Of a DNA stretch of 64,000 nucleotides, positions 5,123 to 38,966 are shown in pieces (the first letter of the stretch is position 1; the number at the start of each line of letters is the position of its first letter). The position numbers and the translations under genes are program-made. The DNA is taken from the NCBI GenBank assembly GCA_026707735.1, contig JAPOWH010000007.1, positions 62,001-126,000 of the forward strand. Reading direction: 5' to 3'. Under the pieces are notes generated by a model. That model ran no database searches, was not told the origin of the DNA, and saw only the letters and a list, made by a program, of their open reading frames with translations. This DNA is from Gammaproteobacteria bacterium (lineage in GTDB: Bacteria; Pseudomonadota; Gammaproteobacteria; Pseudomonadales; Azotimanducaceae).

Positions 5123-5251
5123 ACCAACTTTGCGTTATCGCCTTTTGAGCACTCAATTTGTAGCGCTGCTCCTCCGATATCCATCGGTCGGTCTACAATA
5201 ATTCGACTGGTTCATCTTCGAATGACTGCGCAACGTTGGCAGGGCACGACA

Positions 5252-7252: not shown

Positions 7253-7434
7253 GATCCACTAATTCAGTTGGGAAAACTTAACCGAGCATGGGCAGCGCAA
7301 TCCAAACAGTCCGAACGGCCATTCATAGCTGGATTGAACAAGACTCTCCCGGTTGAGATCAGAGAGGAGCCAGCAAGGCCATCAACGTTAGTACCGAGCG
7401 CGAAGGTCCCTGTGTTGGTCTGCAATCGAACTTG

Positions 7435-8205: not shown

Positions 8206-8299
8206 CAAATCCCTCCACAAATCGAGCTGCAGTTCGTCTCTACGCCATTGTAAGCACTAGCGCTCAGCTAGTGGCAGGGGGCTTCAGATAGGATTGTGT

Positions 8300-10111
8300 C
8301 TACCGATCTAGAGTCAATGCTGTTAGAAAGGCCTGTTGAGGAATTTCGACCTTCCCAATCTGTTTCATTCGCTTCTTGCCTTCCTTCTGCTTTTCAAGCA
8401 GCTTCTTCTTGCGGGTCACGTCGCCACCGTAGCACTTGGCGGTCACGTTTTTTCGCAGTGCCTTCACGGTCGTTCGCGCCAGCACCTTTCGGCCAATTGC
8501 TGCTTGGATGGCAACATCGAACATTTGTCGTGGAATAACCTCCTTCAGGGCAACAGCCACTTGGCGCCCGCGTGATTGAGCAACATCTCTGTGAACAATT
8601 ACGGCGAGGCTATCCACCCGATCTTCATTTATGAGAATGTCCAAACGGACCAGCGGTGCCGGCTCAAAACGATGAAAACCGTAGTCCAGCGATGCATAGC
8701 CCCGACTGACCGACTTCAATCTATCAAAGAAGTCCACAACCACTTCACCCAAGGGAATGTCATACGTCAGCGAGACTTGGCTACTGGTCATTTGCATGTT
8801 CTTTTGAACGCCGCGACGATCTATACATAGCTCGATAACGCTTCCTAGATGCTCTTGTGGCACTAGGATGTTCACACGAGCGATCGGTTCGCGTATTTCC
8901 ACCAAGTCTGCAACTTGATCCAATTGCGATGGACTATGGATTTGAACTGTATCCCCGCCTTGCCGCAAAACTTCGTACACCACGGACGGAGCAGTAACTA
9001 CGACATCCAGTTCGTATTCCCTCTCCAATCGCTCTTGAACGATTTCCATGTGCAACATCCCAAGAAATCCACACCGGTAGCCGAATCCAAGAGCATCTGA
9101 GTTCTCGGTTTCGTATTGAAGCGACGCATCGTTAAGGCCAAGTTTCTCCAGAGCTTTGCCTAACGCCTCGTAATCGTCTGGTTCACTCGGATACAAGCCC
9201 GCGTAGACTTGCGGTTTTAATCTTTCGAATCCTGGCAACGGAGCAGCGGGGTACTTTGCCGAGACGAGTGTGTCTCCGACTGGCGCTCCATGAATGTCTT
9301 TGATTCCCGCTACAACGTACCCCACATCTCCTGCAATCAAGGACTCCCTATCCTCTCGACGAGGAGTGAATACGCCAATCTGCTCGACCACATGCTCTCG
9401 TCCCACCGAACACGACAATATGCGGTCGCGCAGCCGAATGGATCCCTCGAATAGACGAACCAGGGAAACAACGCCAGCATAGCGGTCAAACCAGGAATCG
9501 ATAATCAGCGCACGCAACTGGTCGTTGAGCTCGCAATCCGGCGATGGTATCGCGCGCACAATGAGTTCTAGCAGGTCATCAATTCCTTCACCCGTCTTTG
9601 CGCTGATTCCCAATACGTCGTCGGTTGGCAGTCCGATAAGAGACTCGATTTCTCGCGAGGCTTGGTCAGCATCTGCCTGGGGCAGGTCCATCTTGTTCAA
9701 CACAGGAATCACTTCCAAGCCCTGTTCGATGGCGGCATAGCAGTTGGCAACGGACTGTGCCTCAACACCTTGCGCTGCATCGACAATGAGCAACGCTCCT
9801 TCGCATCCGGCAAGCGAGCGCGAGACCTCATAGCTGAAGTCCACATGGCCGGGAGTGTCGATGAAGTTCAGGTAGTAGGTGAGCCCATCGCGAGCTTCAT
9901 AGCTCAGTGCCACGCTCTGGGACTTGATCGTGATCCCCCGTTCGCGCTCGAGATCCATCGAATCCAAAACTTGATCTGCCATCTCGCGATCCGACAGTCC
10001 GCCGCAACGTTGAATCAGTCGATCCGCAACAGTCGACTTGCCGTGGTCTATATGAGCAATGATTGAGAAGTTGCGGGTTCGAGAAACTCGCGACTCAAGG
10101 GATTCGGTCAC
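8300..10111 (-). CDS. lepA: Elongation factor 4 (LepA), ribosome back-translocating GTPase
   Basis: The 603-residue length matches LepA. The GTPase domain has the P-loop AHIDHGKST, switch [18 protein letters not shown] and NKMDL motifs. The EF-G-like domains and the LepA-specific C-terminal domain ([10 protein letters not shown] ... [20 protein letters not shown]) follow. It binds ribosomes and is thought to aid translation initiation or recovery under ionic stress. The start is GTG at 10111, just before the conserved [11 protein letters not shown]. In most gammaproteobacteria lepB (signal peptidase I), rnc and era follow; here an enoyl-CoA hydratase gene follows instead. The M32 peptidase gene ends 19 bases upstream, so the two probably share a transcript. 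Confidence 0.97.
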
Positions 10112-23656: not shown

Positions 23657-25777
23657 TTGAAGGAGTTCGTGCGCAGGCTAGCTCAGTTTCTGGCTAAAGC
23701 AACTCTTGGAATCCCATGGGTTCTGGCATTGTGTGTGCTTGTTATGGCGGCGCGCGCGGATGAACAGACAGCTCCCCATTCGAGCTCGGATGAGGAAGAA
23801 CAGATTGAAGAGGTCGTTGTAAGGGCAGATCCCGCAAGCTTGGCCGCCCGATCAAGTCAGGGAAGCGTGACTTCTGTAGGTGCTGCATCTGTTTCGCTGG
23901 TGCGAGCGACTCATCCCAACGAAATACTGTCTCGCGTTCCCGGAGTCTGGGTGGTGCGTGGTTCGGGCCAGGAGCATTTAACCGGCATGAGGTCGGGAGT
24001 ACTGGCTGGAGCTGGCGCTTGTGGAGCGTTCCTATTGCTTGAGGACAACATACCAGTTCGTCCAGTAGGGTTCTGCAATGTCAATGGCTTGTTCGAATTG
24101 AACACAGAACAAGCGGATTCGATCGAAGTGCTGCGTGGCCCCGCAAGCGCAATTTTTGGAGGAAATGCGCTACACGGAGTCATTAATGTACGCAGCTTCA
24201 TGGACGCCAACGCGCCCGCACGATTGAGTATTGACGCGGGTCCAAACGACTTCCTGCAATTCCGCGTCGACCATAGCAACCGCAGCTCACGCTTCAAAAT
24301 GCATTCCACCACGACGAATGGCTATCGCGAGTCCACTGGATACGCACAACACAAGGCAAACGCTCGGACAACAATCTCCTTCGGCAACTGGGAGTCCATG
24401 CACACCATCTCAGCAACTGTGCTTGACCAAGAGACTGGGGGCTATGTAAACGGCTTCGAGTCCTTCAAGAACTCGCAGCTAAGACGATCGAATCCAAATC
24501 CCGAAGCATTTCGCGATGCAATGTCGCTGAGAGCTGCCAGTCACTGGATTGGCGAATACGCGGAAGGAAGTCTCTACATAAGCCCCTACGCTCGACGGTC
24601 CACCATGAAATTTCTCCAGCATTTCCTGCCGGGTCAGCCGACAGAAAAGAACTCCCAGTCCAGTATGGGTGTTGTATCGCATTGGACGAAGACCCGTTCT
24701 CGACACACATACACTTTGGGAGCGCACTACGAGTGGATGAGTGCCCGTCTTCTTCAGCAGCAGAAAAACGCCACAATTGGCTCACCCTTCCTTGCTGCTA
24801 CCCGGCCTCCTGGAATTCACTACAACTTTGATGTCGCTGCGATCACGTTGGCTGTATTTGGCGATTCCATCATTTCACTCGGAGACGACGACGAAATCAA
24901 CGGAAGCCTACGCGTAGAACAGGTCAGGTACAACTACGACAATCTGCACCTCAACGGCAATACTCGGGACGATCGAACGCCTTGTGGATTTGGTGGGTGT
25001 CTGTACACCCGACCGGCAGACCGTACGGACAGTTTCTACAACGGCGCGGTCCGACTCGGCTACCGTCGATACCTTGGCGACCATACCCGTCTACGGGGAC
25101 TCATAGGGTGGGGATATCGTCCGCCGCAGACAACCGAACTCTATCGATTGCAGAGCGGGCAGTCTCTGGCAGACTTGACGAGCGAAAGACTTCGATCGAT
25201 GGAAGCAGGCGTGGAGGTCGTTCGCGAAGAGATTGAAATCAGCGTCGCTGCATATCGGGAATCGAACAAAGACCTAGTCTTTAGAGACGCAGAGGGAATG
25301 AATGTAAGCGACGGTGAAATCCTTGCTCAAGGAGTCGAAGTTGAGCTAACCTGGAAGGCAAACACGGAGCACACCATCGCACTAGCGGGCTCTCTTGCAA
25401 ATCACGAATACAGATTCACTCGCACTGTTGCCAGGGGCGAACAAATCAATAGGGGTGCAGAAGTGGACTCGGCACCTTCACTTCAATCCAGCGTCCGATG
25501 GAGCTATCAGCCACTTCTTCAAACTATGCTCGAGGTCGAATTCGTTCACATCGGCTCGCACTACCTCAACGCTGCCAACACAGCAAGATATGGTGGACAC
25601 ACTTTGGCGCACATCAGAGCAAACTGGATTTTCAATGCGAGTTGGCGGGGTTCGCTAAGGGTCGCGAACGCGTTGAATGCCAAGTACGCTGACCGCGCGG
25701 ACTATGCGTTTGGCAACTATCGCTACTTTCCGGGTGCCCCTCGCCAATTATTCGCGGGAATCGAGTACGCCTGGTAG
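23657..25777 (+). CDS. TonB-dependent outer-membrane receptor
   Basis: A 706-residue receptor with a signal peptide (about 1-34), a TonB box (EEVVVRAD, near 49-56), a plug domain (about 65-190, with EVLRGPASAIFGGNALHGVINV) and a C-terminal 22-strand barrel ending in an aromatic residue (EYAW). It imports a substrate such as a siderophore, haem, cobalamin or glycan fragment using TonB energy; the substrate cannot be read from the sequence. The plug has a cysteine pair (GACGAF and GFCNV) and an extracellular loop has another (TPCGFGGCLY). The start is TTG at 23657; a GTG four codons later is an alternative. Confidence 0.9.
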   Translation: MKEFVRRLAQFLAKATLGIPWVLALCVLVMAARADEQTAPHSSSDEEEQIEEVVVRADPASLAARSSQGSVTSVGAASVSLVRATHPNEILSRVPGVWVVRGSGQEHLTGMRSGVLAGAGACGAFLLLEDNIPVRPVGFCNVNGLFELNTEQADSIEVLRGPASAIFGGNALHGVINVRSFMDANAPARLSIDAGPNDFLQFRVDHSNRSSRFKMHSTTTNGYRESTGYAQHKANARTTISFGNWESMHTISATVLDQETGGYVNGFESFKNSQLRRSNPNPEAFRDAMSLRAASHWIGEYAEGSLYISPYARRSTMKFLQHFLPGQPTEKNSQSSMGVVSHWTKTRSRHTYTLGAHYEWMSARLLQQQKNATIGSPFLAATRPPGIHYNFDVAAITLAVFGDSIISLGDDDEINGSLRVEQVRYNYDNLHLNGNTRDDRTPCGFGGCLYTRPADRTDSFYNGAVRLGYRRYLGDHTRLRGLIGWGYRPPQTTELYRLQSGQSLADLTSERLRSMEAGVEVVREEIEISVAAYRESNKDLVFRDAEGMNVSDGEILAQGVEVELTWKANTEHTIALAGSLANHEYRFTRTVARGEQINRGAEVDSAPSLQSSVRWSYQPLLQTMLEVEFVHIGSHYLNAANTARYGGHTLAHIRANWIFNASWRGSLRVANALNAKYADRADYAFGNYRYFPGAPRQLFAGIEYAW

Positions 25778-25893
25778 CGCTCGAGACTTCCGACGACCTG
25801 CTGGACAAAACGTAGCAGACGAAGAGCGCTACTCGCTCAGTAGATGGCTACTGCCCAGGCGTGGCTGGACTCAAATCAGCTACACGCCGCTCA

Positions 25894-26214
25894 CTAATCG
25901 CCCGGAGCTCGGTACGATACGTTCTTTCGAATTGCTTCGTCGATCGTCTCCGGCGAAACCAGCACCTTCATCGTCACATCCAGCGCGCCTGCAGCGCCAA
26001 TGAACATCGATAGCGCGACCGCCGAAGCCTCGTCAGGAAGGTCTACAACCATAAGCAAATCGACATCCCCAAACGCGTAGTACATGGCATCTAGCGAACC
26101 GCCCAGACCCTCTACTGTCTGCGTCAGCGCCTCTCTTCTGCCGCTGCCTCCTTCTTTGAGCAAACCCTGCACTCCCGCTTGCGTATAGCTTGCTTGAAAT
26201 AGGTACTTTGACAT
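25894..26214 (-). CDS. GYD-domain protein
   Basis: The 106-residue protein from the ATG at 26214 matches the GYD domain family: it opens with KYLFQASYTQAGVQGLLKEG and carries the name-giving motif as YYAFGDVDLLMVVDLPD. These small alpha/beta proteins are common, probably bind small molecules or form dimeric ferredoxin-like folds, and have no established function. An upstream in-frame start at 26271 would add 19 residues and is less typical. A TATACT element lies upstream on the minus strand (26246-26241), but its -35 spacing is poor. It is divergent from the large permease fusion genes. Confidence 0.85.
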   Translation of the reverse strand: MSKYLFQASYTQAGVQGLLKEGGSGRREALTQTVEGLGGSLDAMYYAFGDVDLLMVVDLPDEASAVALSMFIGAAGALDVTMKVLVSPETIDEAIRKNVSYRAPGD

Positions 26215-26340
26215 GTCAATTCCAACCTGAAGTTTGAATGAGTATAAGACACGACAGTTGACTTGACGCAAATTGTCTGAGGCGCACTACATCTATTGAA
26301 TGCAAGATGCTACGCGTGGATACACTAACGGTCTCGTAAA

Positions 26341-26372
26341 AGAGCCAATTTCGATGTTTGCGCAATGGCTCT
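26341..26372. promoter_or_regulatory. Inverted repeat upstream of sigma-54 promoter (candidate activator site)
   Basis: AGAGCCA (26341-26347) and TGGCTCT (26366-26372) form perfect 7-base arms around an 18-base centre. The repeat lies about 65-95 bases upstream of the sigma-54 core, in the range used by bacterial enhancer-binding proteins. Its role is inference. Confidence 0.35.
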
Positions 26373-26436
26373 ATGTTTGCCAACACCCACAATCAAGTTT
26401 CGCATTCCAAATGCAAAGAGCAGCGGTTTGATGCAT

Positions 26437-26452
26437 TGGCACGAGAATTGCA
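26437..26452 (+). promoter_or_regulatory. Sigma-54 (RpoN) promoter of fusion gene 1
   Basis: TGGCACG (26437-26443), four bases, then TTGCA (26448-26452) matches the RpoN consensus core TGGCACG-N4-TTGCW exactly, with GG and GC twelve bases apart (-24/-12). The predicted transcription start is near 26463, leaving a leader of about 33 bases before the ATG at 26496, which has its own GGAGG. Confidence 0.85.
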
Positions 26453-26495
26453 CTGCTTTTAGTAGACCGGGACATCCGCGAGGGAGGAAGTGCCT

Positions 26496-29400
26496 ATGAC
26501 GTTGCAGCCGACAACAGTTCTCCGCGTGGCCGCAGCCGAAATGCGGACCTCCCGGCGATTGGTCAGGTTCTGGACCATTGTTGCCGTTCTCTCGATAATT
26601 TCACTCGCGGGCTACGCACTGTCTTGCTTGATCTTGAGTTTCACTGCCCCTTACTCACCATCGATTGGAGCAGCAACACCACTGTATTTGCTGGGAGGAA
26701 TCGATCCCACCTTCTTCCTGGCGTTTCAAATGGCTGTCCTTCTCCTGCTCTTCGACGCCGGGCACCAACATACGAGAAACCGCATCGACGAAGTGCTCGA
26801 CTCCATGCCCGTAACAAACCTGGAGTATCTCACAGGCAGAGTTTTGGGCATCTCCTTCCTGCTGTGGATGGTTGCGGCGGCGAATGTTCTGCTCATGCAA
26901 ACTTTCGGCGTCGCGGCGAACGCATTCAATTTCAGCTACGCCGAGCCAATTCAGTTGCATTCGATCATCAATCTCTTGCTAATTGATGCACCAGCCACCT
27001 TGCTGATCTGGGGTTCGTTCGTTGTTTTTCTCAGCGTCGTGCTGCGTATTCGCGTTCTCACCGTGGCCGTGGGATTGGCGGCCATGTTTGCTTGGTTCTT
27101 CTTGGTTCTCAATGTCCCCTATTCCCTGCTGTCCATCGTGTCGGCGTCGTCCAACGACAGCCTCTTTGTTTCCGATCTGATTCCGGAATTCGCGTCATGG
27201 CAAACAATCCTGGTCCGCATAGCCACGTTGCTTGGTGCCCTGGCGCTCGCCGTTGCCGCCGCAATTGCCATGCGACGACGCGATGGCACATCGATTCTGG
27301 CAAGCGCGTCGACCATCCTTGTGGCCATTGGTTTGTGCGGAGGGGCATATGCACTGAGCGCCACAAGCGTCCTTCAAGAATTCGGAAATCCCGCCAGATG
27401 GCACGAAGCCCACAAAGCGCAACACTGGTCCGATTCAGTCGACGTTCTGGAAATTTCTGGCACCGTTCAAATCTATCCAGGGAAGCGGCTCGACATTGAC
27501 CTCAGTCTCTCCCTGAAAATCGACTCCGATCCCGCGGAGCAACTGATCTTCACATTCAATCCGGGGATGACTATTAGCAACCTCGAATTTAATGGCAGTC
27601 CAGCGAGTTTTAGCTTTCAAGACGGATTGCTGAAACTAGACATTCAAGACGCCTTGACTCCTGACTCAGCACATGCGCTCCGCATTGTTGCCCACGGAAG
27701 ACCCAATCCTCGCTTCGCTCATTTTGACAGTGCCTTGAACTATATGACCAACCCTGCCGTGCCCATTCGATCTGTTCGCATCCTCGGCAAAGATAGCTCT
27801 GTCTTTCGATCCAACTTTGTCGCGTTGATGCCAGGCGTTCATTGGTATCCCATGCCTAGACCTGCACTTGAAGACTTTGCGTCGAGCGATCGAGGAACAG
27901 ACTACTTCAATGTGGACTTGTCAGTTGGACTTTCAAAGGAGAGCCTGCGGTTAGTCGGAACCGGCACCGCCATCCTCGAGGAAGGCAGCGAATCGACATA
28001 TCGAGTGACTTCGAAGGTGCCAGTTCCCGAAATCGGTCTGTTTGCAGCGGAGTACGAGAGTGCTTCGGTTGATGTTGACGGCGTAGCGTTCTCCATGCAT
28101 CTGCACAAACGGCATGCCAAGAACATGAATCTAACGGCTGGAATCGAGGAAGCATTCGCTACCGAGATATCAAACCGGTTGCAACGGCTCACAGAGCATG
28201 GATTGACGGTTCCCCAAGAGAGGATTTCCTTTGTTGAGGTGCCCAATCGATTGCGCACTATTGGCGGGGGATGGCGAATGGACAACGTGAGTTCACTGCC
28301 AGGAATTGCATTGATGAAAGCACAAGCATTCCCCAGAACAAATTTCAATCTTGCGATCCGATTTGCTAAACGCGAAGAATCACCGGAGCAAATTCCGGCA
28401 ACGCTAGCGAATCTCTTGTTTAGATACTTCGAAATGGGAATCGGAGTAGACAATTTGTGGACTACGGTTCCTGAGCATCTATGGACACATGTCACATCAG
28501 CCACGGGCGACCATGCTGAAGCGCTAGATCAAGTCGTACTTGCATTGATTTCCTTTCTGACAAGTACGCCTCAGCAATTCTTTTCGGTTTATTCAACGTT
28601 TCATGTAGCCAATACAACCGCCGTAAGCCCCTATACCTTGAATTATGGTTCAGACCCAGACGGATGGGCACCTTACCAGTTTGAGGTGCGCGAATCGGAA
28701 GTGAGCTACGGTAAGCGTCAGTCAATTTGGACATACATGGAAGGCAATGGACTGTCCGAACTTCCATCCTCCAATGGCAACCAAAGAGACCTTGAATTGA
28801 TGTTGACAAAGACCAACGCAATAGCGGACGGGCTGCTTCACGCCAACGGCATTGAAAAGATCCTGGGGTGGTTGACAGCTCTCCGTCTACAGTTTGCCGG
28901 TCAGAATTACACCTTCGACGATCTGATTCAGTTCGCAAAAGAGCACGAGATCGTGTACGACCCCTTCTTAACGGAATGGTTGGAAGAAACTCCTTTGCCG
29001 GCATACGCTTTTAAGCTAGTTTCGATGGAGCGAATCTCAGACGACGAGCACGGCGGTCCTCGCTACCAAACCTCTTTAGTTGTAAGAAATGTTGGACCAA
29101 TTTCAGGGTTCATTAGGGTTGAATACCCCCATGACCAAAATGCTGATCGACGATTTCCCTTCCTGCTGTCAACCGAAGGGATTCGAATTGAAGGAAACTC
29201 CGCAAGTCAGATCAATGTAGTCAACTCATACGCACTGAACCGGCTAAGTGTGGTACCTCATCTCTCGCTCAATCGCCAGCCAATGACACTTTGGCCGAAT
29301 GCCGAGTCCATTTCCGAAAGCCCCGACGAAGAGCCCGCTCCATTTGAAGAGAGCAGCACATGGATTCCGAGCTCCAACGGGATCGTGGTAGACGACCTCG

Positions 29401-29960
29401 ATTCTGGTTTTTCTGCAAACCAAACTGTACCCAAGATCACGCAATCGGCAAATCTAGGTCCATTCGATTGGTTTCGAGAGCACCGTTTGGAAATAGAACT
29501 GGAAGGCGGACTGCCAAGTTGGGGTCAAATGTATGGTTCAGGTTATTGGGGTACTACTACTAGGCAATTGTGGAACAGATTTGCAATTGAAAGTGCATAT
29601 GGCAAGTACCGAAGAACTTCAACCAGCCTATGGAACACACATTCAACGACATTTCCTACAGTTAGTTTTGAAGCCAAGACACCAGAAGCGTCTTTGTGGA
29701 GACTGGAATACCACATTCCGGCGACTCGTTTCATTATGGGCAGACGCAACACGATGAAATACCAGTTTGTTGTGTCCAACGAGAGCACTACCTACGATGT
29801 CGAATTCGAAAGCAATCCGGAAACCCCTGGCTGGCATGAGCTCGGACAATTCCAATTGACGGCGGGTCCGGTCGGTGTGGAACTCGTGCGAGCGGTCGGT
29901 TATGGACCTGTCTTCGCAGACGCAATCCGTTGGATCAAAGCTGATGACACACCGCTTTAG
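26496..29960 (+). CDS. ABC-2-like permease / M1-peptidase-like / golvesin-like fusion, copy 1
   Basis: I chose the ATG at 26496 because GGAGG lies eight bases before it; a GTG at 26490 is too close. The 1,154-residue protein has about seven transmembrane helices in the first 290 residues, with the ABC-2-type loop DEVLDSMPVTNLEYLTGR. A large periplasmic region (about 320-880) follows the M1 aminopeptidase plan: a beta N-domain, then GGGWRMDN near 590 where M1 enzymes have GAMEN. No HEXXH zinc motif follows; the equivalent helix reads HVTSATGDHAEALDQ. A golvesin/Xly-type domain ends the protein (about 955-1154; IVVDDLDSGF ... YGKYRR ... VFADAIRW). Related permease/M1 aminopeptidase fusions are known; this one looks catalytically dead. 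No ATPase partner is adjacent. Confidence 0.75.
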   Translation: MTLQPTTVLRVAAAEMRTSRRLVRFWTIVAVLSIISLAGYALSCLILSFTAPYSPSIGAATPLYLLGGIDPTFFLAFQMAVLLLLFDAGHQHTRNRIDEVLDSMPVTNLEYLTGRVLGISFLLWMVAAANVLLMQTFGVAANAFNFSYAEPIQLHSIINLLLIDAPATLLIWGSFVVFLSVVLRIRVLTVAVGLAAMFAWFFLVLNVPYSLLSIVSASSNDSLFVSDLIPEFASWQTILVRIATLLGALALAVAAAIAMRRRDGTSILASASTILVAIGLCGGAYALSATSVLQEFGNPARWHEAHKAQHWSDSVDVLEISGTVQIYPGKRLDIDLSLSLKIDSDPAEQLIFTFNPGMTISNLEFNGSPASFSFQDGLLKLDIQDALTPDSAHALRIVAHGRPNPRFAHFDSALNYMTNPAVPIRSVRILGKDSSVFRSNFVALMPGVHWYPMPRPALEDFASSDRGTDYFNVDLSVGLSKESLRLVGTGTAILEEGSESTYRVTSKVPVPEIGLFAAEYESASVDVDGVAFSMHLHKRHAKNMNLTAGIEEAFATEISNRLQRLTEHGLTVPQERISFVEVPNRLRTIGGGWRMDNVSSLPGIALMKAQAFPRTNFNLAIRFAKREESPEQIPATLANLLFRYFEMGIGVDNLWTTVPEHLWTHVTSATGDHAEALDQVVLALISFLTSTPQQFFSVYSTFHVANTTAVSPYTLNYGSDPDGWAPYQFEVRESEVSYGKRQSIWTYMEGNGLSELPSSNGNQRDLELMLTKTNAIADGLLHANGIEKILGWLTALRLQFAGQNYTFDDLIQFAKEHEIVYDPFLTEWLEETPLPAYAFKLVSMERISDDEHGGPRYQTSLVVRNVGPISGFIRVEYPHDQNADRRFPFLLSTEGIRIEGNSASQINVVNSYALNRLSVVPHLSLNRQPMTLWPNAESISESPDEEPAPFEESSTWIPSSNGIVVDDLDSGFSANQTVPKITQSANLGPFDWFREHRLEIELEGGLPSWGQMYGSGYWGTTTRQLWNRFAIESAYGKYRRTSTSLWNTHSTTFPTVSFEAKTPEASLWRLEYHIPATRFIMGRRNTMKYQFVVSNESTTYDVEFESNPETPGWHELGQFQLTAGPVGVELVRAVGYGPVFADAIRWIKADDTPL

Positions 29961-30042
29961 TTGGCAGCGACGGCACCATTCCGCGCAAGGCTACGGCAAG
30001 AGGTCCAAACCAAGGATCGCTTAAGATTGCCAATCCGAATTC

Positions 30043-33000
30043 TTGAGTTCGGAAATTGGACTTGACAGATACGTGAAACTTAGTGCAGGCACGTCGTTGA
30101 GCACCACGGGAAGCAGAATCCTTGCTGCAACTCGGGCCGAATTTGAAAACACCAAGCGGCTCACACGATTCAAGATTCTGCGGATAGTACTTCCGATGGC
30201 CACGCTTGTCGCGTACGCCATGTCGTGCTTTATCCAGTTGTTTGTCGCGCCGTATTCCCCAACCTTTGGTGCTGCGACTCCAAAGTACCTTCTGGAAAAC
30301 ATTGACCCTACATTCTTCCTGATCTTTCAGCTGGCGGCACTATTCCTTGTGTTTGATGCACCGCACCGCCATCGGCGCAATCAAATCGCCGAGGTCTTGG
30401 ATGCAAAACCTGTGTCGAATTTCGAGCTGCTTATGGGTCGAGTGATTGCAACAGCGGCGTTGATGTGGCTAGTTGTGGTAGTCGTCGTTCTCATTCCATG
30501 CTTGATCGGACTAATTGCCGCCGTTGGCGGGTTTGATTTTGCCGAACCCATCGCACTTGCTTCCGTTCTAAACCTTCTGTTTCTTGATGCACCCATTACG
30601 CTTCTGTATTGGTGTGCGATTGGTGTGTTCTTGACCAGCATTCTGCGATTTCGTGTTGCTGTCTTTGCCGTGGCTACAGGTTTCATGTTCCTTTGGTTCT
30701 TCTTGACCATTGAATCGCCCTACTCCGTCTTGCCATTAGTGTCGCCGTCCTCAAACGACACTCTATTCATTTCCGATTTGGCACCTGAACTGTTTTCAAC
30801 GCCTGTCTTTCTTGTCCGATTGGCCACTCTCCTGCTTGCATTTGCCTTCGTCCTGCTGGCGGCTATTTGGATCAAACGGAACGACAGTGCACGTCTGCCG
30901 AATGTTCGAGTTGCCGCACCACTTGCTCTTGTAGCTTGCGTAGGAATGTACGGCTTGGCCAGTGCGTTGGTCTTTGGCGCATTGGCGGACGAAAAGCGGT
31001 GGCGCGAAATTCATGCCGCCGCAAAGGAAGGACGAGAGGTAGATCTGAAGAGAATCTCAGGCACTATCCAACTGAATGCTAGATCCCATTTGGAACTCGA
31101 TCTGAAATTGGAATTTGCTACCGATTTGCAAGACTCTGAACCCTTTGTGTTTGCCTTCAATCCGGCAATGAACATTCAAACGTTGGAATTGAACGGATCC
31201 GTTGCTAATCACACGTTTCAAAATGGCTTGCTTCGACTGAGCAATCCAAACCTGCTTGAATCGAATTCTGACCAAACATTGCGAATCGTAGCACGGGGTC
31301 GACCCAACCCGCGCTTTGCCTACTTCGACAGCGCAATCAACTACCTGACTGATGCCGATGTCCCAATTCAGCTAACTTCTCTATTCGGCAGGGAAAACTC
31401 CCTATTCGGAGCTCGATATGTCGCATTGATGCCCGCCATTTGCTGGTACCCAATTCCCGGTCCGATCAATGGGCATTTCACGCGCCAACAGCGCGGGTCG
31501 GACTACTTCGATGTCGATTTGAATGTCAAGCTATCACCATCAAGTCTCTCGCTTGTCGGTACCGGAACTACGACTAGCCAAGGTGAGGAAGCGTCGACCT
31601 TCAGAGTTATGTCTCACGCACCAATGAGCGAAATTGGCTTGTTCGCTTCGTCATTTCTTCGCCTGTCGACCGAATTCGATGGAATGACTATTGCCATGTA
31701 CTTCCACAGGAGCCACACAAAGCACCTAGCCTGGATCGGAGACCTTGAACAATCCTTCAGAACGGAAGTACAAACGTGGCTACGACGCTACGTCGATCTC
31801 GGACTAACACTGCCGCAACAATCGTTGTCGTTTGTCGAAGTTCCAAGAAAACTACGCACAGTCGGAGGAGGCTGGCGAATGGACTCGGTCGCCGCGCTTC
31901 CGGGTGTCGTTCTTGTCAAAGAACACGGTTTCCCCACAGCTCCGTTGCCCATGGGTCTAGATCGACTTGAGGAGAGAATCGCCGACCGGGAGCAACGCCA
32001 GGCAAGCCAGACTGACCTTGTAGTGCAATACATGGCGCGCGGATTGGAAACGGACAATCTGTGGGTCAGTCTGCCTAACACCTTTTGGTCGGAAGTAACT
32101 TCTGCCACAGGAGAATACGCGCAAGCTCTTGACCAAATCGCTCGCTCCCTTATTGGGTCAATAGCACCCAATCATCGCCAATTCTTCTCGATCTACTCAA
32201 GTTCATACGTTGCACACATGACTGGTGTAAACCCCTTTATATCCGACGAATTTTTAGGGACCGCTCTTTACGACCGACCAGTGCCATCGCCCGTTCAATC
32301 GTTTGCTGACGACTATGGCCGGCGCGCATCGGTGTGGAATCATGTCGAGACTCTCGCATATTCGGATTTGCCTACGAACAACAATCAACGCGACCTCGAA
32401 TTAATGCTGTTCAAAAGCAACGAAATTGCTAGAGGATTGCTCTCGATAAACGGCGAGGAGAAGGTATTCAAATGGCTTTCCAACTTGCGAAGGAGATTCG
32501 CCGGATCCAACTACACACATCGAGACATGCTGGCGCTAGCCGAAGAGCACGAATTGATTGTTGATCCGTTTCTTACTGACTGGATAAGAAACGCCTCGCT
32601 TCCTGGCTATGTTGTTTCTCGAATGAGCGTGGATCGAATTGCCGACGATGCTAGAGGCAATCCCCAATACAAGACGAGTGTGACAGTTAGAAACATGGAG
32701 CCAGTTGGTGGATTCGTGCGACTGCAATACCCAACTGAAGAGACGTGGAGCTGGATGTTTCCCTACTACACGCAATCAAAAGGGGTTTACGTTAGTGCAA
32801 AGACTTCTACGCGCATAAACCTTATCACTCCCTATGAAGTTCGCACTGCTCGACTGCTTCCGGGTCTTTCCTTGAATCGAGGTGCGATTAGCCTACGAAA
32901 ATCCTCCTCGACTATCGATGAACTACTCGAGGTCCAGCCTCCCCCGTTTGCGCAGGCAAGCGAATGGATGCCAACCTCCGACAGCGGAATCATCGTCGAC

Positions 33001-33552
33001 GATCTCGATGCGGGATTTACAGTTACTCAACCCTCTCCCAATTTGGCGCGTCCGACGTCTCTAGGTCCCATGGGGTGGTTTGCGCCTCCACGTCTCCAGT
33101 TGGAGCTGGACAGTGGATTGCCCTACTTGGGAACCTATTACGCACGCATTTCCGAATTCCGTGTTGCTCGCGGTACTTGGGGACGCATTGTCGAAAGCTC
33201 TGCGTACGGCAAGTATCGAAAAACAGTAGCGCAGGCTTGGATCAAAGACAAGATCCACACTGCGCAGTTCACGACGGAGCTGCCTGAGTCCACCCTGTGG
33301 AGACTCTCGTTTCATGTTCCCCGGAGTTGGCGACCGGGTCCGAATGTGGATTTGCAGTGGCAGTTCAAGATTTCCAACGAGAGCGAGAATTGGTATCGCG
33401 AATTTGACCTAGGTTCCAAAGTGCCAGGGTGGAATTCAATCGGAGACTTCAACCTGCCCAAAGGCGCCATTAGTGTGGAACTGGCTGGCATTTCCAAACC
33501 TGGGCATGTCTACGCCGACGCAATTCGCTGGACTAGAGCAATCGATCCATAG
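30043..33552 (+). CDS. ABC-2-like permease / M1-peptidase-like / golvesin-like fusion, copy 2
   Basis: This 1,169-residue paralogue shares the full layout of its neighbours: membrane domain with AEVLDAKPVSNFELLMGR, GGGWRMDS near residue 607, VTSATGEYAQALDQ where a zinc motif would be expected, and a C-terminal domain starting IIVDDLDAGF near 983 and ending VYADAIRW. The start is uncertain: TTG at 30043 has no clear ribosome-binding site, and GTG at 30073 is an alternative. It lies 82 bases after copy 1 with no exact sigma-54 promoter in the gap, so it is probably read from the copy 1 promoter. Function unknown; anchored substrate binding or ABC-coupled export are possibilities. Confidence 0.72.
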   Translation: MSSEIGLDRYVKLSAGTSLSTTGSRILAATRAEFENTKRLTRFKILRIVLPMATLVAYAMSCFIQLFVAPYSPTFGAATPKYLLENIDPTFFLIFQLAALFLVFDAPHRHRRNQIAEVLDAKPVSNFELLMGRVIATAALMWLVVVVVVLIPCLIGLIAAVGGFDFAEPIALASVLNLLFLDAPITLLYWCAIGVFLTSILRFRVAVFAVATGFMFLWFFLTIESPYSVLPLVSPSSNDTLFISDLAPELFSTPVFLVRLATLLLAFAFVLLAAIWIKRNDSARLPNVRVAAPLALVACVGMYGLASALVFGALADEKRWREIHAAAKEGREVDLKRISGTIQLNARSHLELDLKLEFATDLQDSEPFVFAFNPAMNIQTLELNGSVANHTFQNGLLRLSNPNLLESNSDQTLRIVARGRPNPRFAYFDSAINYLTDADVPIQLTSLFGRENSLFGARYVALMPAICWYPIPGPINGHFTRQQRGSDYFDVDLNVKLSPSSLSLVGTGTTTSQGEEASTFRVMSHAPMSEIGLFASSFLRLSTEFDGMTIAMYFHRSHTKHLAWIGDLEQSFRTEVQTWLRRYVDLGLTLPQQSLSFVEVPRKLRTVGGGWRMDSVAALPGVVLVKEHGFPTAPLPMGLDRLEERIADREQRQASQTDLVVQYMARGLETDNLWVSLPNTFWSEVTSATGEYAQALDQIARSLIGSIAPNHRQFFSIYSSSYVAHMTGVNPFISDEFLGTALYDRPVPSPVQSFADDYGRRASVWNHVETLAYSDLPTNNNQRDLELMLFKSNEIARGLLSINGEEKVFKWLSNLRRRFAGSNYTHRDMLALAEEHELIVDPFLTDWIRNASLPGYVVSRMSVDRIADDARGNPQYKTSVTVRNMEPVGGFVRLQYPTEETWSWMFPYYTQSKGVYVSAKTSTRINLITPYEVRTARLLPGLSLNRGAISLRKSSSTIDELLEVQPPPFAQASEWMPTSDSGIIVDDLDAGFTVTQPSPNLARPTSLGPMGWFAPPRLQLELDSGLPYLGTYYARISEFRVARGTWGRIVESSAYGKYRKTVAQAWIKDKIHTAQFTTELPESTLWRLSFHVPRSWRPGPNVDLQWQFKISNESENWYREFDLGSKVPGWNSIGDFNLPKGAISVELAGISKPGHVYADAIRWTRAIDP

Positions 33553-33573
33553 CAGTCGCTTTCGCAATACCAG

Positions 33574-33589
33574 TGGCACGAAAATTGCA
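33574..33589 (+). promoter_or_regulatory. Sigma-54 (RpoN) promoter of fusion gene 3
   Basis: TGGCACG (33574-33580), four A residues, then TTGCA (33585-33589) is an exact RpoN core with correct -24/-12 spacing. The predicted start is near 33600, 28 bases before the ATG. An inverted repeat ATTGCA/TGCAAT (33584-33589 and 33601-33606) overlaps the -12 element. Confidence 0.85.
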
Positions 33590-33627
33590 TTAAATTTCAG
33601 TGCAATGGCCGCGTAGAGTCCTAGGCA

Positions 33628-36600
33628 ATGTCCACAGTTCCGTCCATCTCCAAGATTCTCTCTGTGGCTGCCGGAGAGGTCCGAACATCTAGGCGACAAG
33701 TACGATTCTGGACCATAGTCTTTCTTTTGTCGCTGTTTTCCCTAGCTGGCTATGGACTGTCATGCTCCTTCCTCGCCTACGCTGCAACGACCTCTCCATC
33801 CTACGGCACTGGCATTCCCCAGTACTTGCTGGGCAACATCGATCCCTCATTTTTCCTCATGTTTCAGATGGCTGCATTGTTCCTCCTGTTCGACACGTCA
33901 CACCAGCAGAAGCGGGATCGCATTGCCGAAGTCTTGGACTCAAAACCCATCTCCAATTTCGAATACTTGGCAGGACGCGTGCTTGGTATCGCAGCCCTGC
34001 TGTGGATTGTCGCAGTGTTGAACATTCTGGCGATGCAAGTGTTCGGCTGGGTCGCAACGACCACGAACATCGCTGTTGGTGACACCCTGCAGCTGCACTC
34101 CGTGCTCAACTTGATTTTCTTGGATGCGCCTACGACATTGTTGTTCTGGTGTTCCGTTGTCGTCTTGCTTGCGAGCGCATTGCGCATGCGCGTCGTGGTT
34201 GCAGCGGTTGGAGTCGGACTGATGTTCGCGTGGTTTACCTTGGTGCTTGAATCCCCCTACTCGCTGCAGGCGATCGTTTCCCCTTCCTCAAACGATTCGC
34301 TCTTCGTATCTGAATTGCTTCCTGAGCTTGCTTCGCCTTCAGTCCTTGCGATTCGCGCTGGTACCGTCCTAGCGGCACTTGCACTACTAGCAATAGCAAC
34401 CGTGATCCTTCCGCGACGTGACGGGCATGGCCAGATGAACAGTGTCATTTCAACCACAGCGGGGGGACTCGGTGCCGTACTAGCGACGCTGGGTTCTTGG
34501 AGCCACGTTGCGCACGTCAACGGTGCCGACCAGTGGGCTGAGGCACACCAAAACTTCGAATGGAATGCGACAACTGATCTGACCTCAATCACCGGAATGG
34601 TGCAAATGGAACGCAGTCGTCTCGCCATTGACTTGATCTTGAACGTTGAATGCCAAGAATCCAAATCAAACGAGCTCGTATTCTCGTTCAATCCGGCAAT
34701 GAACATTCAGACTCTGGAGATGAACGGGAATGCAGTGCAGTTCTCCTTCCAAAACGGCTTGCTCGTGATTGAGAATCCTAGTGCCCCGGCCGAGCCTCGC
34801 GCGCATACATTGCACATCGTTGCACATGGCGTTCCTGACCAACGATTTGCCTATTTGAACAGTGCATTCGACTACTTGAGTGTGCCGAAGGTGCCACGTC
34901 AAGCCATTGCTCTGTTTGGCAGCCATGCATCGATCTACGACTCCAGGTATGTTGCGTTGATGCCAGCAACACATTGGTATCCGGTTCCGGGACCAATACA
35001 ACAGGGCTACAGTTCACTGCAACATGGACTGGATTATTTTGATGTCGATCTCACTGTAGCCCTTGAGAACGACGATTGGCAATTGGTCGGGCCGACAGCA
35101 TCGATTCAACTTTCGGAACCAGCTAACGCCTATCGGGTTACCTCCGAACAGCCCATACACGAAATTGGGTTGTTTGCGTCGAACTTCGAAAGTGCGTCAA
35201 TCGACATCGAGGGCACTAGGTTCTTCGTTTATCTCCACAAGCGGCATGCATCTAACCTTCGATTAGTTGAAGAAATTGAAGTAACGGTGCGAGAAAGAGC
35301 TGGTACTTGGTTGAGCAAATTTTCTGAGCATGGATTAACGATCCCAAATCGTTCGGTTTCTTTTGTTGAAGTTCCTCGACGATTGCGGATGGTCGGCGGT
35401 GGCTGGCGGATGGATTCCAAACAAACGCTGCCCGGACTCGTGCTCTTGAACGAACGTGGCTTCCCCAACGCGAGGTTGGATTTGGTGCGAAAACGTCAAT
35501 CCGATAGCGAGACCTCACTGTCTCTGGGTTTGTTCGAATGGCTTGTCCATTACTCGCAGCAAGGAATCGGGCCGGATGATGTCTTGTCAGATTTAGCGGC
35601 GAAACTCTTGACCGACTCGACGTCCGCAACTGGTCAATACGCGCAGCCTCTGGAAACAATCCTTCAATTCTTGACCACATTTGTTGGCCGTGACGATTTA
35701 GACGAATTCTCTAATAGCTTCTTCAATGCTTATTCGACGATCCACTTTGCAGACACAACCGCAATTAGTTTGTTTGAAGGAGTTACTGGAATTGAGGATG
35801 GCGTGAGCAACTCCCAAGTGCCAAGCTCAATGCCCACTCTGCGAAGAGTACGCCAAAGGTACTCAACTCGTACCTCGATCTGGAACGATTTGGAAATCGT
35901 GGGATTTCCTAATCTTCCTACGGGCCATGGGCATAAGCGTGATTTGGAGTTTTCGCTCTTCAAATGCCGAGAAATCGCACGCGCGCTTTTCTCGATCAAC
36001 GGAGAGGATCTTGTTCTCAATTGGCTAGCAGACGTATTACACCAGAAGCAGGGAGGTAACTTCACGTACGTGGATCTAATCAGAATTGCTGAACAGCATG
36101 AGGTAGTGATAGATCCATTCCTAACCCATTGGCTTTCTTCTGCGTCGCTGCCTGGGTTTGCAGCATCCCCCTACACTACGTTTCGCATTCAAGACGACGA
36201 GCGAGGCAACCCCCAATTTCAGACGAGTGTCGCTGTTAGGAATACGAGCAATGTGGCGGGGTCCGTGCGTCTGCAATACCCTACCGAAGAGACTTGGAAT
36301 TGGATACATCCATACGTAGAGAGCAGCAAGGCTGTTCGGATCGAAGGAAACTCAACCAAACAAATCAATCTCCTTACTGCATACGAAATTCGAAGCGTCT
36401 ACCTAAATCCAGGGCTTTCGCTAAATAGAGACGTACTTGGACTAATTAGAGATCCATCCTCGCCTAACGAATTGACAAATCGTGAACCGGCAAGCTACGA
36501 AACGATCGGTTCGTGGTCGCCGCCATTCGAAGAAGGAATCATAGTCGACGACCTAGACCCGGGATTCGTGGTCCAGCAGAAAGCGCCACGCACCACGCGT

Positions 36601-37092
36601 CCTTCGCGCGTGGGTCCGAGGGCATGGTTTCGGATGCCACGCCTCGACGTCGAAATGGACCATGGGCTTCCCGTTAGAGGTCGCTGGATGTTCGAGTGGC
36701 ACCCGCCAAGAGGAATGTGGACACGAGTCTCAGAACCTCGCGCGTATGGGGAATATCGCAGAACTGCAGCGCTATTCTGGAGCAGAGGACACAATCCCCA
36801 AGCCGCATTCGTGACAGAAATACCAGAATCCACAAGATGGCGTCTTGACTACCACGCGCCGCAATCACTAAGCGATAGCTGGTATCGAGGCTTAAAGTAC
36901 GAACTTGTCGTAACCAGCGACACAGAGTCGTGGAATGTCGAATTGGATGCCCACAACTGGAACATCGGTTGGAACGTCGTCGACGAATTTGACCTGAATG
37001 AAGGTGCAGCGCGAGTAGATCTAGTGGGGGTATCGCAGCATAGCCTGTTGATTGCTGATGCCGTGCGATGGACCAAGATTACAGGTCAATGA
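33628..37092 (+). CDS. ABC-2-like permease / M1-peptidase-like / golvesin-like fusion, copy 3
   Basis: A 1,154-residue paralogue with the same order of parts: about seven N-terminal transmembrane helices with AEVLDSKPISNFEYLAGR, a periplasmic M1-like region with GGGWRMDS near 589, STSATGQYAQPLET in place of a zinc helix, and a golvesin-like C-terminal domain from IIVDDLDPGF (near 971) to LIADAVRW. It is closer to copy 1 than to copy 2 in the membrane part (RFWTIV start, LAGYGLSC). The ATG at 33628 has only a weak upstream purine run. It has its own sigma-54 promoter, so expression can be separate from copy 1. No recognisable enzyme active site is present. Confidence 0.75.
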   Translation: MSTVPSISKILSVAAGEVRTSRRQVRFWTIVFLLSLFSLAGYGLSCSFLAYAATTSPSYGTGIPQYLLGNIDPSFFLMFQMAALFLLFDTSHQQKRDRIAEVLDSKPISNFEYLAGRVLGIAALLWIVAVLNILAMQVFGWVATTTNIAVGDTLQLHSVLNLIFLDAPTTLLFWCSVVVLLASALRMRVVVAAVGVGLMFAWFTLVLESPYSLQAIVSPSSNDSLFVSELLPELASPSVLAIRAGTVLAALALLAIATVILPRRDGHGQMNSVISTTAGGLGAVLATLGSWSHVAHVNGADQWAEAHQNFEWNATTDLTSITGMVQMERSRLAIDLILNVECQESKSNELVFSFNPAMNIQTLEMNGNAVQFSFQNGLLVIENPSAPAEPRAHTLHIVAHGVPDQRFAYLNSAFDYLSVPKVPRQAIALFGSHASIYDSRYVALMPATHWYPVPGPIQQGYSSLQHGLDYFDVDLTVALENDDWQLVGPTASIQLSEPANAYRVTSEQPIHEIGLFASNFESASIDIEGTRFFVYLHKRHASNLRLVEEIEVTVRERAGTWLSKFSEHGLTIPNRSVSFVEVPRRLRMVGGGWRMDSKQTLPGLVLLNERGFPNARLDLVRKRQSDSETSLSLGLFEWLVHYSQQGIGPDDVLSDLAAKLLTDSTSATGQYAQPLETILQFLTTFVGRDDLDEFSNSFFNAYSTIHFADTTAISLFEGVTGIEDGVSNSQVPSSMPTLRRVRQRYSTRTSIWNDLEIVGFPNLPTGHGHKRDLEFSLFKCREIARALFSINGEDLVLNWLADVLHQKQGGNFTYVDLIRIAEQHEVVIDPFLTHWLSSASLPGFAASPYTTFRIQDDERGNPQFQTSVAVRNTSNVAGSVRLQYPTEETWNWIHPYVESSKAVRIEGNSTKQINLLTAYEIRSVYLNPGLSLNRDVLGLIRDPSSPNELTNREPASYETIGSWSPPFEEGIIVDDLDPGFVVQQKAPRTTRPSRVGPRAWFRMPRLDVEMDHGLPVRGRWMFEWHPPRGMWTRVSEPRAYGEYRRTAALFWSRGHNPQAAFVTEIPESTRWRLDYHAPQSLSDSWYRGLKYELVVTSDTESWNVELDAHNWNIGWNVVDEFDLNEGAARVDLVGVSQHSLLIADAVRWTKITGQ

Positions 37093-37188
37093 ATGACGGC
37101 CAACTAGTTCGTTGCCGATTTTTGCAAATCTTGGTTGGTTCCGGTGGGTAGTGTCCCGAACTCAGTCCCGGAGTAACAACAAAAGGTG

Positions 37189-37547
37189 TGGTGGAGGCGG
37201 CGGGAATCGAACCCGCGTCCGACAGTACTCCATCCTCGGCTCTACATGCTTATTCTTGCCTTTGATTTAACCCATCAGCGACCCGGCAGGACTGGATTCC
37301 GTTGAGCGAGTCCTCAGTTTTAGCCGCCGGATGATCGGACCATCTTCCGTGGCGATCCCGTAAGTATGATCCCGTCCACCCTATACGGGCATTCGAATGG
37401 ACAGGACTAGCGTGCTATCTAAGCCGCTAGAGCGTAGTTGTCGTCGTTGGCAACTAATTTAAAGTGAAACAATTGATTTACGAGAGCTGTTTCTCTCTCG
37501 GCATGCACCTGAGACTTTGCATCCGCCGTCGAATCCATTTCGCCCCC
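37189..37547 (-). ncRNA. ssrA: tmRNA (ssrA)
   Basis: The minus strand has the complete one-piece tmRNA. The 5' end GGGGGCGAAATGGATTCGAC (from 37547) pairs as a seven-base acceptor stem with the 3' end, which closes with a T-arm (GGGTTCGATTCCC) and an encoded CCA at 37189. The tag frame (37451-37419) reads GCC AAC GAC GAC AAC TAC GCT CTA GCG GCT TAG, giving ANDDNYALAA, a degradation tag ending in the usual ALAA. tmRNA rescues stalled ribosomes together with SmpB, whose gene is not in this window. Length 359 bases is normal. Confidence 0.97.
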
Positions 37548-37689
37548 AGTGACTACCTAATTTTGAGACATCTATCTATTCAACAGCGTTCATTTTAACC
37601 CGCGAAAAACGTGGAATCCAGCATTGAACCCGCATTCGAAGGGAGTCGATGGGGCGCAACTGCCCTAATAGCCAACTTATTCTCTATCC

Positions 37690-37705
37690 GAGGTTATTTA
37701 ACCTC
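37690..37705. repeat. Short palindrome in the ssrA-37820 intergenic region
   Basis: GAGGTTA-TT-TAACCTC has perfect 7-base arms with a two-base centre, more like a dimeric protein-binding site than a terminator. It is 115 bases upstream of the small gene at 37820 and 143 bases upstream of ssrA. No known regulator motif is recognised. Confidence 0.3.
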
Positions 37706-37819
37706 CGAGTTTGCACAGAGTGCTTGGCTATCGCTCTCCAATCATCGAATTCGCACCGACCCTATACAATGTTGACGGCAGAAAATGCGCTTTAGTCACT
37801 AGTTTCAACTTTAAACGCC

Positions 37820-38101
37820 GTGAGCGAAGAACGACGTCTAACACGTATGGTTTACGACGCCTTTGTTGCAGTCGTAGAGACCGGACGCAATGAAATCCAT
37901 CCGGGAGACATTGTCCAGTTCATGCGCGAGCAGAACCATCCAATGGGAATCTGGAACGTAAACGGGGAGCTGACCAAACTGCGAGGACTCGGCGTGGTCA
38001 GATTGAACGATGACAACGCCACGTGGACTTTGATTCCTGGGGTGGATTTCGAGGAGGCGTCTTTGAAGCCAAATGGAGAGGCAACTACTTCGAGCGATTG
38101 A
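37820..38101 (+). CDS. Small conserved-looking protein, possible winged helix
   Basis: A 93-residue protein with a GTG start. The pattern RRLTRMVYDAFVAVVETGRN...IHPGDIVQFMREQNHPMGIW-NVNGELTKLRGLGVVRL reads as a winged helix: three helices, then a hairpin ending in LGVVRLNDDNATWTLIP. Such folds usually bind DNA or RNA. The last 17 bases overlap the 3' end of the convergent ispA gene. I do not recognise the family; the fold is inference from the helix and strand pattern. Confidence 0.65.
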   Translation: MSEERRLTRMVYDAFVAVVETGRNEIHPGDIVQFMREQNHPMGIWNVNGELTKLRGLGVVRLNDDNATWTLIPGVDFEEASLKPNGEATTSSD

Positions 38102-38966
38102 CACAGAGATTCGCGATCTCTGCCAAGGTTGATTCCTGCAAGTCCATGCGATCTAGAACGTCAAACGCATTACCAAGCAATTTCGCTGCCTTGGCTTGAG
38201 CTCGTTCAACTCCAATGTGCGTTACGTAATTGAGCTTTCCCGCCGTGCCGTCGGCTTGGGCGGGTTTGCCCAAGACGTCTGAATGCTGCGTTGCATCCAA
38301 TATGTCGTCGGTGATTTGAAATGCCGCTCCCACGAAGCCCGCAAACTCACTAAGAGATCGATATTCGGATGTGGCAGGATCAAATCCAGCCACAACAGAT
38401 CCGATCTCCGCACTGGCACGGAACAGCGCGCCAGTTTTCGCGCCATTTAGAACATCCAGTGTCGAGGAGTCTGCAATGGTGCGATTCTCCAATTCCATAT
38501 CCATGGCCTGTCCACCGACCATGTTTGCCCAACCACCTGCATCCAACAGGGCTTGGAGTGCGTTCACCCGCTGTTGCGAACTAAGTTCTCCGCATTTAGC
38601 GAGAGTCTCATAGGCAAGCGATTGCAGCGCATCCCCAACCAGAATTGCAGTCGTGGTCCCGAACGCCGCATGGCAACTTGGTTTCCCGCGACGCAATGAC
38701 GCGTTGTCCATGTCAGGCAAGTCATCATGCACAAGGGAATAAGCATGCAAGTATTCGACGGCCGCCGCCGGACCAAGAGCTGCCTCCAGCGAACCGTTTA
38801 GGCCAATCGCACTTGCACACACCATACTTCCACGCAGTCGCTTCCCGCCATTCAAGACGGCATACTTCATACCATCGGAGAGCTGAGTCGAGTGTTTGGA
38901 TTCGAATGACAGATCGAGTTCCAGATAGTCATTCACTCGCTGTCGAATTGCCTGCAAGCCAATCAT
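38085..38966 (-). CDS. ispA: Polyprenyl synthetase, (2E,6E)-farnesyl diphosphate synthase
   Basis: IspA condenses dimethylallyl and geranyl diphosphates with isopentenyl diphosphate to make farnesyl diphosphate for quinones and undecaprenyl phosphate. The 293-residue protein has GGKRLRGSMV, the first aspartate-rich motif HDDLPDMDN (from Asp81) and the second DDILD, all intact. xseB lies 19 bases upstream, the normal gammaproteobacterial order xseB-ispA. The usual third member, dxs, is not downstream; instead a convergent small gene overlaps by 17 bases. Confidence 0.95.
   Translation of the reverse strand: MIGLQAIRQRVNDYLELDLSFESKHSTQLSDGMKYAVLNGGKRLRGSMVCASAIGLNGSLEAALGPAAAVEYLHAYSLVHDDLPDMDNASLRRGKPSCHAAFGTTTAILVGDALQSLAYETLAKCGELSSQQRVNALQALLDAGGWANMVGGQAMDMELENRTIADSSTLDVLNGAKTGALFRASAEIGSVVAGFDPATSEYRSLSEFAGFVGAAFQITDDILDATQHSDVLGKPAQADGTAGKLNYVTHIGVERAQAKAAKLLGNAFDVLDRMDLQESTLAEIANLCVNRSK

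Follow-up and report, generated by a model that had tools for sequence, protein, structure and literature searches.

A family of ABC-2-type permeases with a predicted inactive M1 fold in Azotimanducaceae: candidate interchangeable subunits of a single exporter chassis

Exporters in which an ATP-binding cassette (ABC) permease of the ABC-2 type is fused to an M1-type peptidase domain have been described as family 3.A.1.145 of the Transporter Classification (TC), including the Myxococcus xanthus protein Q1D520, in which 13 helices are joined to a zinc aminopeptidase domain (PMC3924187). Competition of different S-components for a common module has been proposed for energy-coupling factor (ECF) transporters (PMC7755397), and MsmK (PMC4519317) and MceG (PMC9947336) are each a single ATPase linked to several transporters. 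Here we describe three adjacent permease genes in a 64,000-nucleotide stretch of DNA (hereafter the window; assembly GCA_026707735.1, contig JAPOWH010000007.1, positions 62,001 to 126,000 of the forward strand) from a gammaproteobacterium of the Azotimanducaceae, and the gene family to which they belong. The nearest described proteins are the TC 3.A.1.145 fusions. The genome holds many such permeases and one operon in which a family member stands beside an ABC ATPase and a resistance-nodulation-division (RND) pump, and the permeases may be alternative subunits of that one machine.

The sequence-only reading, made earlier from the letters of the window, had proposed three adjacent intact plus-strand genes of common architecture, and these were confirmed as open reading frames (ORFs) over 26490-37092. 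Copy 1 (P0001, 26490-29960, 1156 aa) has a GTG start, the ATG at 26496 being the start used in that reading; copy 2 (P0002, 30043-33552, 1169 aa) has a TTG start, and a GTG at 30073 corresponds to the listed start of its relative L031; copy 3 (P0003, 33628-37092) encodes 1154 aa. The intergenic gaps are 82 and 75 bases. Relative to the middle copy, the outer ones show 43% and 42% identity, which bears out the divergence noted earlier. Each gene is read here as an orphan half-size ABC-2-type permease with a periplasmic part composed of a predicted dead M1 fold and a golvesin-like end. In a simple hydrophobicity plot all hydrophobic segments lie before residue 315, in agreement with the N-terminal membrane part proposed earlier; where about seven helices had been proposed, the plot shows 6 segments in copy 1, 8 in copy 2, some of which overlap, and 5 in copy 3, to be compared with a six-helix ABC-2 core. 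The ABC-2-like loop EVLD(S/A)xP was found in 3/3 copies; in copy 2 it occupies 30352-30456 on the plus strand (residues 104-138, FDAPHRHRRNQIAEVLDAKPVSNFELLMGRVIATA), after the second hydrophobic segment. The loop after the second helix and the ABC-2 homology are as in ABC-2-type export permeases, although the Pfam ABC-2 model gives only a single marginal match (copy 3, E 0.057).

The M1-like region, at 31000-32622 on the plus strand in copy 2 (about residues 320-860), has no Pfam Peptidase_M1 match in the window copies or in the other members in this genome, and the M1 fold is recognized by profile comparison alone. With hhalign, the family profile matched an ABC-2/M1 fusion (L068) at E 7e-13 over the membrane part and the N-terminal M1 part, and two Pfam-confirmed M1 peptidases (L069, L073) at E 2e-9 and 1e-8; all nine negative controls (six unrelated proteins and three shuffles) remained at E 0.25-0.77. 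L068 is classed as a fusion from its ABC-2 Pfam matches and its HEVAHQWW motif, Peptidase_M1 being unreported by Pfam on the truncated piece fetched. The HExxH zinc motif is absent from all 20 family ORFs of this genome (representing 19 genes). Among 110 proteins of at least 820 aa from 28 genomes, it occurs in three, where the M1-like part begins or within the linker but never in the catalytic stretch, and the HEILH of two true M1 proteins aligns to non-HExxH residues of the family. Because no copy retains the M1 zinc motif, the fold is predicted to be catalytically dead and, as judged from its residues, cannot be a zinc peptidase. The M1-like character read earlier from the letters therefore stands as a fold and falls as an enzyme. 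The motif GGGWRMD, common in many copies near the place expected for GAMEN, is found in copy 2 at 31864-31884 on the plus strand (residues 608-614), presumably near the position of the GAMEN exopeptidase motif of M1 enzymes. The family gives a clear example of a peptidase fold that has presumably been turned to binding.

A Golvesin_C-like domain (PF25275) was detected by Pfam at the C-terminus of all three proteins, as expected from the earlier description, on the plus strand at 29565-29930 (copy 1, residues 1026-1147, E 9e-7), 33166-33537 (copy 2, residues 1042-1165, E 1e-5) and 36712-37074 (copy 3, residues 1029-1149, E 2e-4), all under the Pfam curated cut-off of 31.6 bits. Matches at E <= 0.01 were found in 10/18 members in this genome, with a best E of 7.5e-11. 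A CBM6-CBM35-CBM36-like domain is carried by two commensal proteins that are lectins, while the two other characterised proteins that have it, xanthan lyase and golvesin, are described as enzymes, not lectins (PMC9166713). No solved structure was a convincing relative by sequence. An AlphaFold model of copy 2, built from 5 aligned rows, has a mean predicted local distance difference test score of 37.7 and is unusable; the order of its helices and strands agrees with the domain reading and is no evidence for it.

The three genes are a small part of a scattered family of about 19 genes in this genome, which the sequence-only reading had missed. The genome holds 20 profile matches over ten contigs, including the contig of the window, and we infer about 19 genes because two matches at contig ends cover complementary parts (9-857 and 841-1167). 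All 18 genomes of the genus were matched, with counts of 2, 2, 2, 2, 3, 3, 3, 3, 6, 14, 18, 20, 25, 29, 30, 30, 31 and 34. These are matches rather than genes, as a gene that is broken or runs off a contig can be split into several matches; for instance, the 25 matches of another species (G007) comprise 16 full genes and 9 pieces.

In each genome one copy belongs to an operon, where it is preceded by an ABC ATPase and followed by a membrane-fusion protein (MFP) and an RND pump. In this genome the operon is on contig C23 (L014), where the ATPase (8205-9224), permease (4749-8201), MFP (3652-4773) and RND pump (550-3648) are all on the minus strand. The sequence-only reading had missed this copy, which sits elsewhere in the genome with an ABC ATPase, an MFP and an RND pump and suggests the function. 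The ATPase matches ABC_tran; its best NCBIfam models, DrrA and GldA, are both under cut-off, and it is of a general ABC-2 type. Exactly one operon-type ATPase (E <= 1e-60) was found in each of the 18 genus genomes, and coordinate comparison showed that a permease adjoins it in 18/18. MFP and RND genes follow in all 17 uncut loci, and the 18th (G001) ends at the contig end. In addition, extra permeases stand in line upstream of the ATPase in seven of the 18 genomes. In G002, eight permeases in line (gaps of 3-311 bases, and 82 bases to the ATPase) are followed by the ATPase, permease, MFP and RND pump; five extra permeases precede the ATPase in G012, three in G005, two in G009, one each in G008 and G006, and a partly broken set in G014. 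None was seen in the other 11 genomes within the stretch fetched (only 1.5 kb for G013).

The occurrence of many permeases (2-34 matches) with only one motor gene in each genus genome suggests swappable recognition parts on a shared machine. We propose that each of the genes codes for a half-size export permease of the ABC-2 type, with about six or seven helices and a cytoplasmic N-terminus, whose periplasmic receptor would consist of the dead M1 fold and a golvesin-like end that possibly binds glycans or polymers. The operon permease would be driven by its own ABC ATPase, and its periplasmic part would capture the substrate and pass it to a conduit of MFP, AcrB-like RND pump and outer membrane. 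The orphans, including the three in the window, would be alternative specificity subunits that dock on the single ATPase and probably also use the same MFP/RND chassis. Half-size ABC-2 permeases function as dimers, and an orphan may form a homodimer, or a heterodimer with the operon permease, on two ATPase copies. The permease set would diversify quickly, gain and lose members, and swap single genes between species. We infer the sharing of the single ATPase by the orphans, the docking on it, the direction of export and the class of substrate, and we give an even chance to one exporter chassis common to many interchangeable permease/receptor subunits, as an export analogue of ECF transporters.

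The distribution of conserved residues bears on this proposal. In ABC-2 permeases the loop after the second helix is the contact with the ATPase. The mean pairwise identity of this loop is 0.41 among 17 full-length orphans of this genome, compared with 0.26 for the other membrane segments; among ten operon copies the values are 0.69 for the loop, 0.47 for the other membrane segments and 0.37 for the golvesin part. Of seven regions for which averages were taken, the loop has the highest conservation, and most orphans retain this expected ATPase contact. Further, the parts of the operon diverge at different rates. Between this genome and G007, identity is 48% for the operon permease, 60% for the MFP, 78% for the RND pump and 86% for the ATPase; between G005 and G009, the proportion of non-synonymous differences is 0.113 for the operon permease, 0.020 for the ATPase and 0.022 for the RND pump. 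The pattern of rates and conservation is as would be expected for a fixed engine with a variable receptor. The ratio of non-synonymous to synonymous rates is 0.07-0.27 in seven pairs (one near saturation), being 0.17 for copy 2 and its relative; intact copies are therefore kept by selection, as had been supposed for the three genes.

The three window genes do not group together. Trees were built from 106 and from 36 proteins; in them, copy 1 is paired with its closest relative, a gene of G007 (L115 on contig C12, 57% identical), copy 2 with genes of G007 and G003, and copy 3 is placed beside five genes from other species, of which four are 50-51% identical to it. In G007, the genes related to copies 1 and 2 occupy other loci, and a single clade of the three window copies is rejected (approximately unbiased test, p-AU 7.9e-5), so the tandem triplication read from the sequence is rejected. 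The G007 site matching that of the window, again with a TonB receptor, GYD and ispA as neighbours, has a single permease (L116), which shares no more than 44% identity with any copy in this genome. Beside L116, on G007 contig C5 (L145:5586-7957), there are three tandem small paralogues of 217-242 aa with signal-like starts, the first two of which share KKLDPGVVNDWMRATV.

Copy 2 is 83% identical to its G007 relative, at the aceE locus of that species. The proportion of synonymous differences (pS) between the two is 0.39, as compared with 0.73-0.85 in 12 other genes, all from fetched loci, and the similarity begins and ends at the gene (30048-33576). Because the synonymous difference is far below that of the other genes and the similarity is bounded by the gene, copy 2 is a single gene moved horizontally between species after their split. 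Similarly, nine permease pairs in the G002 group have pS of 0.34-0.50 versus 0.69-0.75 for the ATPase, RND pump and MFP, other G002 pairs being higher. The G003 copy of gene 2 (L030, JAPOXO010000021) is on a 7.3-kb contig whose flanks are also about 90% identical to G007, and pS in five other G003-G007 genes is 0.65-0.76. This contig may be mis-binned, because its flanks are far closer to G007 than other G003 genes are; the transfer proposed for copy 2 is independent of it. Decayed permease pieces, some with stops, were observed in G007 (L127-L134, including C2:429388-430479, C3:375677-376380 and C2:268165-268458) as signs of gene death. The family thus evolves by birth, death and exchange, and provides a clear case of single transporter genes moving between species. 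A larger version of the proposal, in which each cell has one ABC/RND chassis and dozens of hypervariable permease-receptors with birth-and-death turnover, arrays upstream of the motor and single-gene transfer, is possible, and we hold its probability to be somewhat short of even.

Outside the genus, the family was matched in 59/200 genomes of the taxonomic family, three of them weakly; with three candidates scored per genome in that search, and two in those of the class and phylum, copy numbers there are unreliable. A second genus with many copies, a large share of them fragmentary, is g58 (G074, G113, G174, G182 and G194), in which five fully counted genomes have 6-30 matches. In the class, a full-length relative was found in one of 368 other genomes (G551, from another family) and short weak matches in 13 more, ten of which were inspected by eye and had the look of ABC-2, GldG-like or M1 proteins. 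None of 397 other genomes of the phylum matched at E <= 1e-10.

The operon ATPase was found in 50/200 genomes of the taxonomic family, one in each when the 10 best candidates per genome were scored, and all 50 have permease matches. Beyond the genus, a permease adjoins it in 31/32 (G144 and G154 were checked, the G154 permease being split in two ORFs), and in G551 the operon gene order is identical. Nine permease-positive genomes are without the ATPase. Three of these have weak permease matches (G021, G136, G147), G186 carries an ATPase piece (74% identical) at a contig start next to a permease, and the best ATPases of G065, G084 and G110 are 34-38% identical. In G096, G128 and G174 (g58), two permeases lie between ATPase and MFP, and the operon has a further gene, an RND pump fused to an ABC ATPase domain; in G174 (L157:12858-17648) it encodes 1597 aa, with Pfam ACR_tran at 5-1032 and ABC_tran at 1316-1457. 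This fusion ties the ABC and RND parts together, and in g58 genomes that carry it the motor is not strictly alone. Long genes resembling the fusion, with similarity to both the operon ATPase and the RND pump, were also seen in L153, L158, L159, L163 and L164. Overall, support and exceptions outside the genus roughly balance; the ECF-like genomic pattern fits within the genus, and some genomes outside break it.

Several observations weigh against a shared motor. The three copies in the window have no operon-type ATPase alongside and, like most copies of this genome, are far from it. The loop motif is lost in three of 18 orphans here (L018, L020 and L022) and partly kept and partly changed in L019, and in G007 it is lost in L123-L125 and changed in L120-L122. 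Loop conservation is also not unique, because two M1-like 25-residue windows (451-475 and 601-625) score higher in the orphans of this genome (0.47 and 0.45). Further, no family ATPase was found at E <= 1e-45 in G182, which is 98% complete and has 27 permease matches, or in G019, which is 96% complete and has one, and in G113 the 19 kb around the ATPase contain no permease. The distance from an operon-type ATPase, the lost or altered loops (four copies here and several in G007) and the two genomes with permeases and no ATPase favour an alternative in which the orphans no longer take part in transport at all and need no ATPase, serving instead as receptors, lectins or adhesins that are anchored in the membrane and display the M1-like and golvesin-like domains in the periplasm. 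Lectins do occur among CBM6-CBM35-CBM36-like proteins, though xanthan lyase and golvesin are enzymes (PMC9166713). The membrane part and coupling loop retained by most orphans and the permeases standing in line with the ATPase speak against such a role, and we regard it as unlikely.

The orphans might instead be true ABC permeases served by other ABC ATPases. A first look gave 65 ABC ATPase candidates in this genome, and others are present in every genome, which also counts against a single motor; the general ABC-2 type of the operon ATPase, with DrrA and GldA models below cut-off, speaks for this alternative. The permeases nevertheless track the operon ATPase: 50/50 genomes with it have a permease, and 0/141 genomes without a permease match have it, if both searches drew the same 200 genomes, as the handles suggest. 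Dependence on other ATPases is thus improbable. A comparably low probability attaches to a BceAB-like role in sensing or target protection, in which the permeases would recognise many host or competitor compounds and, together with the ATPase, remove them from the membrane or signal, without RND export. As in BceAB systems, there is a large extracytoplasmic part on an ABC permease, and fast divergence and exchange between species would agree with such a role. In G074, G178 and G190, ATPase and permease occur with no MFP or RND gene in the stretch fetched; this is a further point against the proposed chassis, and the RND part is therefore not universal. MFP and RND genes are both present in seven others of their genus (G096, G128, G154, G162, G168, G174 and G198), and it is their presence in all 17 uncut loci of our genus, together with the RND-ABC fusion gene in the operon of another, that argues against a BceAB-like system. 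Membrane-tethered active M1 aminopeptidases, to which the M1 fold and the zinc aminopeptidase domain of the described ABC-2/M1 fusion (PMC3924187) might point, are rejected on the missing HExxH in the catalytic stretch (0/20 ORFs here; 3/110 proteins, all outside it).

The surroundings of the three genes were also surveyed. A TonB-dependent receptor gene lies upstream (window 23657-25777), with 57-59% identity at the same site in G007, and a transfer-messenger RNA gene lies directly 3' of copy 3 on the opposite strand (window 37189-37547, minus; Rfam RF00023, E 5e-79). Over 25800-38200 there are two promoter-like sites (9.6 in shuffles) and 12 terminator-like sites (12.7 in shuffles), none of either kind inside the two intergenic gaps. 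A shared upstream motif of the 19 copies was not clearly above shuffles (best 7-mer in 5/19 against a null mean of 3.75; 8-mer in 4 against 2.8). PADLOC anti-phage models gave no match for four permeases (the three of the window and the operon copy), and the ATPase gave ATPase-domain matches only.

Export pumps are usually viewed as fixed sets of parts, whereas about 19 permeases with a single ATPase would constitute a modular exporter. If the proposed sharing is true, the bacterium would possess a changeable repertoire of exported or expelled compounds, and the variable receptors would hint at the compounds that these uncultured bacteria exchange or use in conflict. No such permease family was reported in the literature searched (on ABC-2/M1 permeases, golvesin and sponge-symbiont expansions), most subscription papers lying outside its scope. 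To our knowledge, no shared-ATPase permease family of this size is known. The operon MFP and pump resemble those of RND tripartite efflux systems, matching TIGR01730 RND_mfp above cut-off and ACR_tran, respectively; unlike in ordinary tripartite efflux, the operon adds an ABC ATPase and an ABC-2/M1-like permease, and G174 has a second pump fused to an ABC ATPase domain. As in the TC 3.A.1.145 exporters, an ABC-2 membrane part is fused to an M1-type domain. The proteins described here fall outside that family, having about half the helices and no zinc motif, and they differ further in the added golvesin-like domain, the RND/MFP operon and the many orphan paralogues. In contrast to the MsmK and MceG systems, which are importers with few partners, the permeases here are numerous and presumably export. 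The proposed logic is the one put forward for ECF transporters, namely competition among many substrate subunits for a single ATPase module; ECF systems import micronutrients through unrelated S-components, whereas the subunits that would share a motor here are ABC-2 permeases with RND and MFP partners.

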